In this document: positions 31,067 to 62,114 of the stretch, piece after piece
Position numbering within the stretch: the stretch's first letter is position 1
Layout: each line of letters opens with the position of its first letter
Origin: Candidatus Bathyarchaeia archaeon
GTDB taxonomy: Archaea; Thermoproteota; Bathyarchaeia; 40CM-2-53-6
Direction: 5' to 3'
NCBI GenBank assembly: GCA_035935655.1
Contig: DASYWW010000037.1
Location: 1-64,000 of the forward strand
DNA length: 64,000 nt
The notes under the pieces: generated by a model
Database searches by the model: none
Told to the model about the DNA's origin: nothing
Seen by the model: only the letters and a program-made list of their open reading frames with translations
Made by a program: the position numbers and the translations under genes

Positions 31067-32032
31067 CTAGGCGGGTAGTTTGCAGTCGATCGGGTCCTTG
31101 TCGGTTCTTATCCGTTTGAATCGGGGGAACCTGAGTCGGCCATCATTTGTCAACGCCATATAGGCTACCTCGACAACAAGCCTTGGCTTGACCCAACTCA
31201 CCGGAGTTGGCGAGTCAACTGGTCCATCGATTATTGCAGTCCGCTGTTCGATTCTCGACAGTTTTCTTCTTAGATCCTGCAGCATATCATCGGTAAAGCC
31301 TCCACCCACGTTTCCTATGTGCTGCAGCTTTCCATCTTCGTCGTAGGCAGCAAGAATCAGGGACCCAAAGGTAGGAGCGCGTGCACCTTCACCTTTGCTG
31401 AAACCAACGACTATGCAGTCAGTAGTGTTTACCTGTTTTATCTTAATCCAGTAGTCGGCTCGAAGACCCGGAACGTACTGCGACTCGTTTTTCTTAGCAA
31501 TTACTCCCTCGAAACCCTTGTTCGTAGCTTCTTGGAAGAAACGGGTTCCTTCCGCTTCGACATGATCTCCGTAAAGGAGGTAGGGCCCTTCTCTAAGAAT
31601 GGATCTGAGCCGCTTCTTTCTCTCCACGAGCGTACTGGTGATCACGTCCCTGCCGTCGAGGTGGAGGAGGTCGAAGGCAACGTATGTAACAGGTGTCGTC
31701 TTGCCGAGTACATCGACTCGTTTAGGGTCGTCAACACCGAAGCGAGCTTGGAGACGCCCAAAGTCAGGAACTCCGTCTTCTCTCAGGACAACGACCTCTC
31801 CGTCTATTATTGCAGCCTTTGCTCTAAGGCGATCTGAGAGCGTTTGGAGTTCTGGATAGGACCGGGTTTCGTCTCTCAGATTTCTGTTCTGAATCTCAAT
31901 CCTTCCTTCTTGAAAGAATAGAATGGCTCGGAGTCCATCCCATTTCGGCTCGAAAAAGTAATCTTTACCATTGAAGGGCTTGCCGGTTTTAGCAAACATT
32001 GGACGCACAGGACGCTCGTCAAAGAGCGTCAA
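31067..32032 (-). CDS. ligD-like (lig): ATP-dependent DNA ligase of the NHEJ type (LigD ligase domain)
   Basis: A 321-residue minimal ATP-dependent ligase with the nucleotidyltransferase and OB domains only. The catalytic lysine is K30 in E-P-K-W-D-G, motif III is in V-A-F-D-L-L, motif IV in E-G-V-I-A-K-K and motif V in W-I-K-I-K. It starts at TTG, overlapping the Ku stop by 4 bases (TTGA), so the two are translationally coupled. It corresponds to the ligase domain of bacterial LigD, here a separate protein. Seals double-strand breaks held by Ku. Confidence 0.95.
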   Translation of the reverse strand: MTLFDERPVRPMFAKTGKPFNGKDYFFEPKWDGLRAILFFQEGRIEIQNRNLRDETRSYPELQTLSDRLRAKAAIIDGEVVVLREDGVPDFGRLQARFGVDDPKRVDVLGKTTPVTYVAFDLLHLDGRDVITSTLVERKKRLRSILREGPYLLYGDHVEAEGTRFFQEATNKGFEGVIAKKNESQYVPGLRADYWIKIKQVNTTDCIVVGFSKGEGARAPTFGSLILAAYDEDGKLQHIGNVGGGFTDDMLQDLRRKLSRIEQRTAIIDGPVDSPTPVSWVKPRLVVEVAYMALTNDGRLRFPRFKRIRTDKDPIDCKLPA

Positions 32033-32808
32033 CGCCTCTCGTGAGTTTTGATGCTGGCCCTTAGAGCCTCCATAAGGTTCTTCGTTGGCTTGATCTCTGG
32101 AACACGTACTTCGACGACTTCCTGACCCTTCATCTTGGCCTCAACTAGTTTCATCAAAGACTCCTGATACGTGTCCCTGTACTCTTTGAACGCAAAGGGC
32201 TTCTTCATGATCTTGATTAGCTGACCCGCGAGCTCCAGCTCCTCCTTCTCCACCTCCGGCGCTTTCTTCAACTCCGGAAGATCCTTGGGAGATCGTATTT
32301 CATCCGCATAATGGAGGGTCTCCATCAGAATTGCTCCCTCATAGGGCCTCAATGCCACCAAGTGCTCCTTCTCATGCATGACCACCCTACCAACGGCGAC
32401 TTTCCCCTCCTGTTCCAAGGCCTCAAACATCAGGAAGTATGGTTTCTCGCCATTCTCGTCTGGTACGAGATAGTAGCTCGAATCAAAATAGATAGGATCT
32501 AACTTGTCTGCGTCAACGAATTGGAAGATCTCGACCAGCCGTCCCGATCGTATCTCCAGCTTCTCAAGTTCTTTTTGAGTAATAGGAACGTATTTTCCCC
32601 TTTGAATCTCAAATCCGCGAACGACATCTTGCCATGGGACTTCATTGCCGTCCTTCGGACATACACGTTTGAACGTAAGAGGACTCTTGTCCCGAGGGCA
32701 CAAGAGGCGAAGCCCAGTCTTGTGCTCGGAAATTGCTCCGTATGTCTTTACCGGTATGCTTACCAGTCCGAAACTGATCGCTCCCTTCCATATGGCTCTA
32801 GGTGGCAA
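32029..32808 (-). CDS. ku: Ku, bacterial/archaeal type
   Basis: A 259-residue homodimeric Ku that binds broken DNA ends. It starts with M-P-P-R-A-I-W-K-G-A-I-S-F-G-L-V, as nearly all prokaryotic Ku proteins do, and carries the Y-F-D-S-S-Y-Y-L-V-P core and the K-x-Y-R-D-T-Y motif before the short C-terminal tail. It is followed by the coupled ligase gene, and a LigD-type polymerase gene is divergent 100 bases away. Together they make a complete end-joining set. Confidence 0.96.
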   Translation of the reverse strand: MPPRAIWKGAISFGLVSIPVKTYGAISEHKTGLRLLCPRDKSPLTFKRVCPKDGNEVPWQDVVRGFEIQRGKYVPITQKELEKLEIRSGRLVEIFQFVDADKLDPIYFDSSYYLVPDENGEKPYFLMFEALEQEGKVAVGRVVMHEKEHLVALRPYEGAILMETLHYADEIRSPKDLPELKKAPEVEKEELELAGQLIKIMKKPFAFKEYRDTYQESLMKLVEAKMKGQEVVEVRVPEIKPTKNLMEALRASIKTHERR

Positions 32809-32908
32809 AGTCTAATCCCTTCTTTAGAACAGGATCCTTTCTGACTCGTCGAATAAGAGGATTACCTGGAGACGATTAAGCCATAGCAACGCGCGCGTCA
32901 CGACCAAG

Positions 32909-33826
32909 ATGGGGCAATTGAGGAATATCGAAGAGAAAGTCGAGATCGATGGGCGGAAGCTCTCTCTCTCCAACTTGGATAAGCCAATGTGGAAGAAAGA
33001 AGGTATCACCAAGTCGGACGTTATCGAGTACTATCTGTCTGTAGCCCCCAAGATGATTCCGCTTGTCCGAAACAGGCCGCTGATGCTTAACCGGTATCCT
33101 CACGGCGTTCCGGGAAAGTCCTTCGTACAGAAGGACTGGCCTTACCATCCCGACTGGGTCCGAACTGCACCGGTAAGATCCGAGAGCCTGAACAAGACAG
33201 CGAGGCACGTTGTCTGTGACGACAAAGCGACACTGGTCTGGTTGGCAAACATGGCCTGTCTCGAGATCAACCAGTTTCTAGCATCCACTCCAAATGTCGA
33301 GTCACATGATATGGTGCTGGTTGACCTGGACCCTCACGCGCCGGCGGGATTCGAGGATTCACTGGAAATCGGGGAAGCTGTTCATGCGGCGTTAGATCAG
33401 ATGAAGCTGCGCCATTTGATTAAGACTTCTGGCGCTGATGGAATCCATTTCCTGATCCCGATTGTTCCTCGATATTCGATCGAGGCCATTCGACGGTTCG
33501 TCTTGCTGTTAGGAATTCTACTGGAGCGGCTGGCGCCAAAAATGGTTTCAACTTCTCGGAACAAAGCTCAGCGAGCCGGGAAGATCTACGTCGACTATTT
33601 CCAGAATGGGTTACAGAAGACCATTGCAGCCCCGTTTTCGCTGAGACCTGAACCTAGTGCTCCAGTCTCCTTTCCCCTCTCAGCTAAGGACTTGAAGAGG
33701 AGTATACACGCCGAGGATTTCAATCTTAGAACAGTTCCCGGGTTGTTGAAGAGGGTTCCGGAGTTTGATACCAGTCCTGACCAGGGGTTGGAGTATGCAT
33801 TCGGAGAACTTGGCGCCAAGTCCTAG
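32909..33826 (+). CDS. LigD-type NHEJ polymerase/primase
   Basis: A 305-residue archaeo-eukaryotic-primase-like polymerase matching the LigD polymerase domain. Signature segments are R-Y-P-H-G-V-P-G near residue 63, D-L-D-P near 138 (metal ligands), K-T-S-G-A-D-G-I-H-F near 170 and K-T-I-A-A-P-F-S-L-R near 235. It fills gaps at DNA ends, preferably with ribonucleotides in known relatives. No 3'-phosphoesterase domain is fused or adjacent. Divergent from Ku. Confidence 0.94.
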   Translation: MGQLRNIEEKVEIDGRKLSLSNLDKPMWKKEGITKSDVIEYYLSVAPKMIPLVRNRPLMLNRYPHGVPGKSFVQKDWPYHPDWVRTAPVRSESLNKTARHVVCDDKATLVWLANMACLEINQFLASTPNVESHDMVLVDLDPHAPAGFEDSLEIGEAVHAALDQMKLRHLIKTSGADGIHFLIPIVPRYSIEAIRRFVLLLGILLERLAPKMVSTSRNKAQRAGKIYVDYFQNGLQKTIAAPFSLRPEPSAPVSFPLSAKDLKRSIHAEDFNLRTVPGLLKRVPEFDTSPDQGLEYAFGELGAKS

Positions 33827-33842
33827 TTTGCCAAATGTTTGG

Positions 33843-33903
33843 TGGGCCGGGAGAGATTTGAACCCTGTCGACCAGTTCCCGTGAAGGTTCTCGACCCCAC
33901 GGT
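33843..33903 (-). tRNA. Orphan tRNA 3' half with apparent T-arm intron
   Basis: On the minus strand: position-38 A, anticodon-stem half CCGTG, variable region GGGTC, T-stem GAGA, a 25-base insertion (33864-33888), then G, loop TTCAAAT, CTCTC, acceptor half CCGGCCC, A and encoded CCA (33840-33842). Removing the insertion gives a perfect 5-bp T-stem. No 5' half with GGGCCGG is found in the 614 bases up to tRNA-Ile on this strand. It may be the 3' part of a gene split by a homing-endonuclease intron, a trans-spliced tRNA half, or an integration relic. Confidence 0.6.
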
Positions 33904-33919
33904 TATCATGCAGCAAACC

Positions 33920-34447
33920 TCAGAGGTGAGAGTCTGCATCTAACGATATTTGCAAAAGCCGCGGCAGAATTCGTGTCCAGTGCAGGAAGAGTTCTCTTAT
34001 GACCGCTCTGTAAATTCTTATATGGATAATCCCCCTCTTGATTTCTCTGCCTCTACTCTCGGTCGTGATAGGTTTTTCAAACCTATCTATTCCCAACGTT
34101 TTCTTCCAATGTCGCCGGTATCTCTCGTAACCTTCAATTGGGGCATGTACCCTGAGAGTCACGTAGCGAGAGATTCCAATCTGCCGAAGCAACTCTAGGA
34201 AGATTTTGGCTAACGACTCGGATGAGTTGACAATCTCGAGTTCATATGGACGCGTTCGTGTACCTTCGCATGCCCAGATCGTAACCCCAACAAGAAATAG
34301 ATCCCTACTAATCGATCTTCTGATTTTGACGGGCTTAGGCCTTCCTCGCCGACGCTCATAGTAAATCGTGGCAAATTGCTTCTCTGACTCCACGAATATC
34401 GGATCCCCACGAGAGGTCTCTCGTGGGATGAAATTCTGAAGGTCCAT
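33920..34447 (-). CDS. LAGLIDADG-like homing endonuclease
   Basis: A 175-residue basic protein with L-V-G-V-T-I-W-A-C-E-G-T near residue 53, a single LAGLIDADG-type helix of the W-A-E-G kind. The Lys/Arg-rich stretch before it and the H-I-R-I-Y motif later fit such nucleases. Its stop is 17 bases from the orphan tRNA 3' half, on the same strand, the position expected of an intron-encoded endonuclease. A 9-bp perfect hairpin (34407-34428) lies in the first codons, so the true start may be further downstream. Confidence 0.65.
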   Translation of the reverse strand: MDLQNFIPRETSRGDPIFVESEKQFATIYYERRRGRPKPVKIRRSISRDLFLVGVTIWACEGTRTRPYELEIVNSSESLAKIFLELLRQIGISRYVTLRVHAPIEGYERYRRHWKKTLGIDRFEKPITTESRGREIKRGIIHIRIYRAVIRELFLHWTRILPRLLQISLDADSHL

Positions 34448-34516
34448 TTGTAGGCATTACCGTAACCTTGCTATAAGCTGGGGTCCCGAGGCAAAGTAAT
34501 TTGCCCATGAAGATGA

Positions 34517-34639
34517 TGGGCCCGGCCGGATTTGAACCGGCGACCCCACGGTTTCCGGAGGTTATCTGTATCAGCCGTGTGCTCCTCGGCCTCAAAGAGC
34601 ATTGCTTGCTCTCGGTTAACCGTGCTGAGCTACGGGCCC
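34517..34639 (-). tRNA. tRNA-Ile (GAT), two introns
   Basis: Acceptor GGGCCCG pairs perfectly with CGGGCCC, and the T-arm GCCGG/CCGGC is perfect. The anticodon stem CACGG/CCGTG encloses C-T-GAT-A, with the anticodon at 34570-34572. A canonical intron of about 16 bases (34553-34568) follows position 37. A second of about 32 bases (34585-34616), with a GAGAGC/GCTCTT hairpin, sits in the D-loop; once it is removed the D-stem GCTC/GAGC forms. No CCA is encoded. Exact splice points are inferred. Confidence 0.85.
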
Positions 34640-34750: not shown

Positions 34751-34876
34751 GGGCCGGTAGTTCAGCCTGGTATGCCAAGACTGGAAAAGTCTTGGGCTGA
34801 AGAACGTTCGGTTCGCATAGATCGCGTTTGATCTAGAGTGACCGAAAGGCCGCGGGTTCAAATCCCGCCCGGTCCA
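34751..34876 (+). tRNA. tRNA-Ala (CGC), two introns
   Basis: Acceptor GGGCCGG with CCGGTCC has the G3-T70 pair that marks alanine tRNAs. The T-arm GCGGG/CCCGC is perfect. Anticodon stem TTCGG/CCGAA, anticodon CGC at 34814-34816. Intron one (about 34773-34801, 29 bases) is in the D-loop and forms an 8-bp hairpin CCAAGACT/AGTCTTGG; removal restores the D-stem GTTC/GAAC. Intron two (34818-34840, 23 bases) is at the canonical 37/38 site. CCA is encoded (34877-34879). Confidence 0.88.
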
Positions 34877-61190: not shown

Positions 61191-62114
61191 TTGGGGGAAC
61201 GAAACGTGAGACAAGTCTACCCTGTGGATAGGTGGATTTCGCTGTACGAGGGGGGTTGCTCCCTTCCGAGGATAGCGCAGCAATACCACATCGGTGCTTC
61301 GACAGTCAGACGTTCTTTGGTCCGACGCATTTCTCTCAGAGATAGAGTCTCAGCAGCGATCGCCGCTTCGACTAAGTATACAAAGAGGCCATTCTCGGGT
61401 GATCAACGCGAGGGCGCCTTCCTAGCGGGCCTGATAGAAGATTTTCATGTCCGGAAAGTTGGAAGGCTAGTTGAACTCGGCTCGTCAACAACACATCCAG
61501 CAATGATGCAACTATTCAATAGTGTTTTCAGCGCTTATGGACACCCAACCTCTTCGCCAAGCTATGAAAAACGTAACGGGTACTACAGATATTACCTCAG
61601 CGTCTATTTGCACGACAGCTTCGAACGCGTCCTGACAAAATCAATCAAAATGCCGAGTTGGATTCCTCATTCGGATGATGATCCGATTTTCGAATCTTAC
61701 CTATCTGGACTCATCGCTGCTGAGGGATGTGTAAGACTGTATGATAATCACGGCCACGCGGACGCGGTCTTGCATATTACTCTCAACAAGCGCCAGCTTC
61801 TAGAGGAATTATCGCATGTTATTGGTGGAAGCCTTTACGAAGTTACACGAGCATATCGGCTGGTTGTCTACGGAAAAGCCGCTCTCGACTTGTTGCGCCA
61901 ACTAGACTTGAGGCATGATGAGAAAGTTAGGAAATTGAGGCTTATGATAGCTCATGCGGGCGAAAGATGGACAATTGTTGAGCCACTTTGGAATGAACTG
62001 GTCAATTCAATCAAGATAGGAGTGAAGGGACCCACAGCATCTGCCAGGTTGGATTATGTTGCAAAACACGGGGCGCGCCATCCAAACGAATACGTGGGAA
62101 ACGAGAGGTCGTAG
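61191..62114 (+). CDS. LAGLIDADG endonuclease-like protein inserted before copA
   Basis: TTG start, 307 residues. An N-terminal helix-turn-helix ([16 protein letters not shown]) precedes two LAGLIDADG helices, [10 protein letters not shown] near residue 80 and [10 protein letters not shown] near 167. The first has Phe at the place of the catalytic acid, while the second keeps Glu. Cleavage may therefore be impaired or limited to nicking. It lies exactly between the relic YHS start and copA, and its stop is 2 bases before the copA start codon. Confidence 0.8.

Follow-up and report, generated by a model that had tools for sequence, protein, structure and literature searches.

Homing endonucleases of archaea are classically located in 23S rRNA genes, and I-DmoI is an archaeal 23S rRNA intron endonuclease. 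In mitochondria, mobile open reading frames (ORFs), termed mORFs, form gene hybrids, as in atp6 of Allomyces macrogynus and atp6, atp9, cox2 and nad3 of Glomus; there, an endonuclease ORF has entered a gene along with a 3' part of foreign origin, by which the gene is completed, and the native 3' part is displaced downstream (PMC3630166). Integrative elements of the SSV/pNOB8 type re-supply the end of a tRNA and leave the old end at their far border, and at the tRNA-Thr locus of Caldiarchaeum subterraneum a displaced tRNA fragment lies by a complete, intron-gaining tRNA, a layout explained by a recombinase element, with the proposal that the intron protects against further invasion (Sugahara 2012, PMC3293823). 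The origins of archaeal tRNA introns at odd places and of split tRNAs have long been debated, and mobile elements have been proposed (PMC3293823; PMC3218864). Here we describe a 665-bp insert in the tRNA-Ile(GAT) gene of a Candidatus Bathyarchaeia archaeon, found in a stretch of 64,000 nucleotides (GenBank assembly GCA_035935655.1, contig DASYWW010000037.1, positions 1 to 64,000; hereafter the window). The insert, which contains an endonuclease-like ORF (HEG1), is probably a homing-endonuclease-type element that entered the anticodon loop, bringing a replacement 3' half and displacing the old one.

The sequence features of a mobile-ORF hybrid are found together at this tRNA-Ile: an ORF with a replacement 3' part, a displaced native part, and an empty site in relatives. 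Unlike the mORFs, which concern fungal mitochondrial protein genes, the case described here concerns archaeal tRNA genes, its old and new halves differ in small introns, and there is a mirrored, 5' version too. The Caldiarchaeum report deals with one locus and a putative DNA recombinase, whereas here there are endonuclease-like ORFs at several tRNAs and in several genomes, together with empty sites and divergence data. In contrast to SSV/pNOB8-type elements, the insert contains no integrase, its ends are not identical and it measures only 665 bp. No report of archaeal endonuclease genes packaged with tRNA halves was recognised among titles and abstract openings in the open-access literature, a scan that is not proof of absence; the principle itself is already known from other systems.

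An empty site, a filled site and a displaced tRNA half

Eighteen genomes of the genus, among them the window genome (G000; 2.50 Mb, 95.8% complete), were searched for the tRNA-Ile 5' end. The gene was seen in 10 of the 18; in the other 8, the pattern led to no tRNA-Ile(GAT) among the part of the hits that was read. The locus is composed as follows.

33840–33908, minus strand: the orphan, a displaced 3' part that belonged to the resident tRNA-Ile(GAT), starting in the anticodon loop and ending with the encoded CCA (G003, G005, G006 and G012 have its intact counterpart)
33867–33891, minus strand: 25-nt T-arm intron retained in the orphan (the intact gene of G005 has an intron of equal length and position)
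33904–34568, minus strand: insert of 665 bp comprising replacement 3' part, spacer and endonuclease ORF, with TGATA common to both ends (joined flanks compared with empty sites)
33920–34447, minus strand: HEG1, a 175-amino-acid, single-motif LAGLIDADG-like ORF (PF14528 below threshold, E=0.071; homologues inside 23S rRNA genes)
34448–34516, minus strand: 69-bp spacer between the replacement tRNA end and HEG1, found also in G013 and G015 (sequence comparison)
34517–34639, minus strand: complete tRNA-Ile(GAT), in which the element's 3' part continues the resident 5' part (Rfam, 49.2 bits)
34553–34568, minus strand: 16-nt intron in the anticodon loop, which came with the replacement half and is proposed to interrupt the cleavage target (presence or absence across the genus)
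34585–34616, minus strand: 32-nt D-loop intron of tRNA-Ile, inferred by restoring the D-stem
32909–33826, plus strand: gene of the LigD primase-polymerase, conserved as the neighbour to the right of the site (Pfam, relatives)

The tRNA-Ile genes of G003, G005, G006 and G012 start with GGGCCGG and possess a T-arm intron but no anticodon-loop intron; their 5' half is exactly the one (GGGCCGG acceptor, CACGG stem) that the original prediction, made from the window sequence, had postulated as lost. When the two flanks of the insert are joined, they correspond to the empty site of G005, G006 and G012, gap-free at the junction, with identities of 65/73, 64/71 and 64/71 in the 5' part (89–90%) and of 60/64, 61/64 and 59/64 in the orphan (92–95%). 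The empty site of G003 is more distant (58/71 in the 5' part, 52/64 in the orphan). The TGATA shared by the insert ends is located in the anticodon loop. Read from the tRNA side, the insert consists of the 16-nt anticodon-loop intron, a new 3' end, the 69-bp spacer and HEG1, which is the sole gene recognised within 33904–34568 by the ORF list and Pfam, with no integrase among the matches.

Judged by its sequence, the orphan is what was formerly the 3' end of tRNA-Ile(GAT), severed within the anticodon loop and with its T-arm intron kept. Its minus-strand sequence (33908 to 33840) is TGATAACCGTGGGGTCG, 25 nt, and then AGGGTTCAAATCTCTCCCGGCCCACCA, with CTCTCCCGGCCCA as its acceptor end; its exact 3' 22-mer occurs once in the 2.50-Mb genome, the next-best match having 1 mismatch. 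Since the intact tRNA-Ile of G005, G006 and G012 contains this 3' part, 25-nt intron included, the orphan is not a chance match; in the intact gene of G003 the T-arm intron of this 3' part is shorter. The original prediction had described an orphan tRNA 3' half with an encoded CCA and a 25-base insertion in the T-stem, located beside an endonuclease gene and without a matching 5' half nearby, and had proposed looking for an intact tRNA with the same 3' half. This description is confirmed by the sequence and by the intact genes of the relatives, and no 7-bp acceptor partner for the orphan was found within 660 bp upstream. The start of the orphan, which had been placed at position 38, moves to position 33/34 in the anticodon loop, where homology to tRNA-Ile begins; the stop of the endonuclease-like ORF at 33920, correctly given as 17 bases from 33903, is 12 bases from the corrected end at 33908.

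Rfam called only two complete tRNAs here, 34517–34639 (minus strand) and 34751–34876 (plus strand), and not the orphan, and ARAGORN called no tRNA in the window, against these two by Rfam. A T-arm pattern with a background of 0.25 per shuffled 64 kb occurs twice in the window, both times in real tRNAs. The D-arm and anticodon loop of the second tRNA (34751–34876) look interrupted.

The replacement 3' end has a different T-stem and no T-arm intron. Because T-stem and intron content both differ, the 3' part of the working gene is not a simple copy of the orphan. Together with the resident 5' part, and with two introns removed, it yields a tRNA-Ile(GAT) of full length in which the acceptor and T stems are paired; the same 5' part combined with the orphan has a C6-C67 acceptor mismatch. 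In predicted folds, removal of the 25-nt T-arm and 16-nt anticodon-loop introns restores the acceptor and T stems, and the minimum-energy folds form neither a clear bulge-helix-bulge nor the canonical anticodon arm. The anticodon-loop intron is present in all three tRNA-Ile genes that directly adjoin HEG1 (G000, G013, G015) and absent from all seven others seen in the genus (G003, G004, G005, G006, G012, G014, G017).

To the right of the site, ligD lies directly after tRNA-Ile in G003, G005 and G012. In G006, about 2.5 kb of extra sequence (L074, 2255–4800) separates an intact tRNA-Ile from ligD; this right flank is also found after the decayed orphan of G004. In the window, genes for Ku, an ATP-dependent ligase and the LigD polymerase (31067–33826), a bacterial-type end-joining set, stand directly beside the invaded tRNA.

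HEG1 and probable repeated invasion at tRNA-Ile

Matches to HEG1 were found in 8 of the 398 genomes of the phylum that were searched. Its strongest distant relatives beyond the window genome and G014 come from three genomes (L199, L200 and L201; E 4e-10, 4.6e-10 and 1.1e-5), and all three lie inside LSU_rRNA_archaea matches, that is, in archaeal 23S rRNA genes. PF14528 matches L199 with E 0.0016 and L201 with E 0.057, with no match for L200. The ACEGT of HEG1, which we take to be the LAGLIDADG motif with its acidic residue, aligns with AGEGT/GGEGT in these 23S-borne relatives; its E is replaced by K in G013. Given Pfam and PDB profile matches below threshold on the one hand, and 23S-borne relatives with an aligned motif on the other, HEG1 is probably, rather than provably, a homing endonuclease. 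Comparing the profiles of HEG1 and of the HEG3 family described below gave nothing, and a scan of viral contigs gave no HEG1 relatives. A second LAGLIDADG-like ORF of the window (61191–62114, plus strand; 307 amino acids; PF14528 E 0.003, below the cut-off) has no tRNA nearby according to a T-arm scan.

Comparison of HEG1 with its surroundings points to mobility. Its synonymous divergence (Ks) between the window genome and G015, G014 and G013 is 0.232, 0.363 and 0.326 (nonsynonymous divergence, Ka, 0.024–0.062; for G014 and G013, values cover parts of the gene only), whereas that of the adjacent ligD in the same genome pairs is 1.742, 1.683 and 2.546, and another neighbouring ORF is saturated in these comparisons. 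HEG1 Ks values so far below those of ligD indicate horizontal spread, and by this sequence measure HEG1 is younger than the divergence of its hosts, with a mostly conserved protein. The gene is intact in the window genome, frameshifted in G014, and broken and truncated in G013; in G015 it has an internal stop, and the contig ends within the gene.

The same site appears to have been entered by other ORFs. In G004, two other nuclease-like ORFs (NucA and NucB) follow tRNA-Ile, with a decayed 3' end beyond them, and in G014 a NucA-like sequence is followed by the broken HEG1 and then by an orphan with a decaying acceptor. In G018, from another genus, reading by eye gives tRNA-Ile, a broken NucA/NucB-like ORF, a displaced tRNA-Ile that runs from the D-loop onwards with both anticodon-loop and T-arm introns, and ligD. 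NucA is unrelated to HEG1 and occurs in 3 of the 61 genomes searched for it and for HEG3; it has a weak PHROG match and matched no Pfam or NCBIfam family.

Similar units at other tRNA genes

Units of the same kind were found at three further tRNAs of the window genome, with isotypes assigned by eye. At tRNA-Arg(TCG), a 296-amino-acid ORF (PF14528 E 0.00052, below the cut-off) is accompanied by an orphan 3' half with 35/37 bases matching. At tRNA-Pro(TGG), HEG3, a 300-amino-acid LAGLIDADG ORF (PF14528 E 2.5e-12), is accompanied by an orphan 3' end whose T-arm intron resembles that of an intact gene in G001. At a fourth tRNA the order is mirrored, with an orphan 5' half, a 218-amino-acid LAGLIDADG ORF (E 1.7e-8) and then a complete tRNA. 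The position of the break in the tRNA differs between units, and the two ends differ from each other in intron content. No relative of HEG2 turned up in the 60 other genomes searched. All intact tRNA-Pro (GCCCCGG) alleles that were read carry some anticodon-loop intron, so protection there would need differences in the T-arm.

Several other loci were seen in the course of this work. On contig C59 of the window genome (L054, 1945–3477, minus strand), a tRNA, a 416-amino-acid tyrosine recombinase and a different tRNA 3' end look like an ordinary integrase-type site. At L056 (1430–2735), a 319-amino-acid ORF with 28% identity to the endonuclease of the mirrored unit is flanked by two tRNAs that both look complete, and no orphan half was seen there. 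L132 (G009, C65) holds a relic tRNA-Pro 5' part that stops at the T-stem with no 3' end after it. Contigs C13, C12, C18 and C39 of G000 have LAGLIDADG matches in open frames of more than 1000 amino acids, which are probably inteins.

We extended the analysis to the HEG3 family, for which there were 32 matches in 14 of the 61 genomes, with 30 loci returned. A fully paired T-arm was found within 370 bp at 18 of the 30 loci; L175, a HEG3-family LAGLIDADG ORF of the window genome, has no tRNA nearby. Displaced halves were sought by Smith-Waterman local alignment against 200 shuffles and accepted at p<=0.015; with L186 excluded as a self-match, 17 loci were valid. Eight of these have a displaced half (L161, which is the window genome's own tRNA-Pro unit, L162, L176, L177, L179, L180, L182 and L184), where about 0.3 would be expected by chance; L178 (p=0.015) was left uncounted, its match lying away from the acceptor, and L163 (G012, tRNA-Pro) was negative, with a possible degraded end by eye. 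None of the eight displaced halves has a partner half within 400 bp, and the complete tRNAs beside three of them, serving as a positive control, do have one. At 6 of 13 antisense loci the endonuclease stop codon lies 22–49 bases inside the tRNA; among the rest, the L186 ORF extends further in, L184 merely touches the tRNA, and 5 fall short. Relatives of such cutting enzymes, as recognised by homology, thus repeatedly adjoin tRNA genes in these soil archaea. The HEG3 family profile matches I-DmoI (E 4.8e-10) and this, like the HEG1 relatives inside 23S rRNA genes, recalls the LAGLIDADG endonucleases of 23S introns; unlike in those, the HEG1 gene lies outside any intron, and the replacement half would keep the function of the host gene.

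Proposed mechanism and alternative explanations

In the arrangement that we propose, the element begins with a replacement 3' part of tRNA-Ile, which has an anticodon-loop intron of its own; a short spacer comes next, followed by the gene for the endonuclease. The working gene would then combine the resident 5' part with the element's 3' part, and the resident 3' part, moved to the far side, would be the orphan. The enzyme may cut the empty allele at its uninterrupted anticodon arm; this arm is by nature almost a palindrome (CACGG-loop-CCGTG) and would be a fitting target for a LAGLIDADG enzyme that has a single motif and acts as a dimer. With the filled allele as template, repair would copy replacement half and gene together, and the filled allele, its palindrome split by the 16-nt intron, would no longer be cut. 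The element's half would stand in for the role of splicing in introns: host tRNA function would survive because the element supplies the missing half. The empty sites, the gap-free junction, the lower divergence of the element and its recurrence at other tRNAs can be read from the genomes compared; cleavage, its target, dimerisation, intron-based immunity and homing itself are what we infer from them.

Several observations weigh against this account. The LAGLIDADG_3 (PF14528) match of HEG1 is weak (E 0.071) and below the Pfam cut-off, the best PDB match of its A3 profile, I-DmoI, is not significant (E 0.098), and HEG1 has no match in NCBIfam or PHROG. Its AlphaFold models are poor (mean pLDDT, the predicted local distance difference test score, 51.8 and 49.3), so that a fold search, which gave no PDB match at E<=0.001, carries no weight. 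The working 5' part has C6 where the empty alleles have G6, which requires an extra point change or a longer conversion tract. The orphan directly follows HEG1 in only two of four genomes (G000 and G014); in the other two, the contig stops inside the gene (G015) or the locus is rearranged (G013). Finally, 9 of the 17 tRNA-linked loci tested gave no accepted displaced half.

The original prediction had offered an attachment-site relic, a giant intron and a trans-spliced split tRNA as possibilities. In the relic reading, a tyrosine-recombinase element would have left the orphan as its attachment site and later lost its integrase, with the ORF as cargo. tRNA 3' ends are classic attachment sites, the site on C59 (a tRNA, the 416-amino-acid integrase and a further tRNA 3' end) is such a case in the same genome, and the similar Caldiarchaeum layout was so explained (Sugahara 2012, PMC3293823). 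This idea was close in spirit, but the endonuclease-like ORF stands alone in the 665-bp insert, the other units with this layout have different endonuclease-like ORFs and likewise lack an integrase, the break falls at differing tRNA positions, and the two ends are unlike in intron content; we consider it unlikely, a homing-endonuclease-type element fitting better. A further alternative, in which tRNA-Ile was partly duplicated or underwent gene conversion and the endonuclease gene came separately into the gap, would draw on the region downstream of tRNAs being a permissive insertion site and on L056 with its two apparently complete tRNAs. It is very unlikely, given that several tRNAs are hit by unrelated nuclease families, that a mirror-image 5'-side case exists, and that the gap-free empty site bounds half and gene together.

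The remaining two readings would keep the orphan in use. As a clean 3' half with intact stems, it might be part of a second, trans-spliced tRNA-Ile, and archaeal split tRNAs do exist (PMC3218864). A complete tRNA-Ile is present, however, the orphan acceptor is decaying in G014, and the genome contains no unpaired 5' half within 3 mismatches of a 21-nt query (GGGCCCG...CACGGT): none of its 5 matches begins GGGCCGG, one is the tRNA-Ile, and the four others, each with 2 or more mismatches, are taken as other tRNA genes. We regard a split tRNA as extremely improbable. Least credible of all is a giant cis-spliced intron, with the 5' part at 34569–34639 spliced across the insert to the orphan; LAGLIDADG genes can sit in archaeal introns, and HEG1 has relatives in 23S rRNA genes, but a complete tRNA end intervenes and the product would carry the C6-C67 mismatch.

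Discussion

Across related genomes, a single locus displays an empty site, a filled site, a displaced half and an apparently spreading endonuclease-like gene, in a layout that recurs elsewhere. Whether these units represent a widespread and hitherto unrecognised class of archaeal mobile element, in which an endonuclease gene packaged with a 3' or 5' tRNA half invades tRNA genes and replaces a half, with intron-bearing or recoded halves serving as immunity, is in our estimation an evenly balanced question. The locus makes it possible to test in vitro, using a single enzyme and two short DNA targets, whether introns give tRNA genes immunity against an invader. If such a class of element exists, repeated rounds of invasion would be a driver of tRNA intron turnover in this group, and the displaced halves left behind could give rise to split tRNAs.
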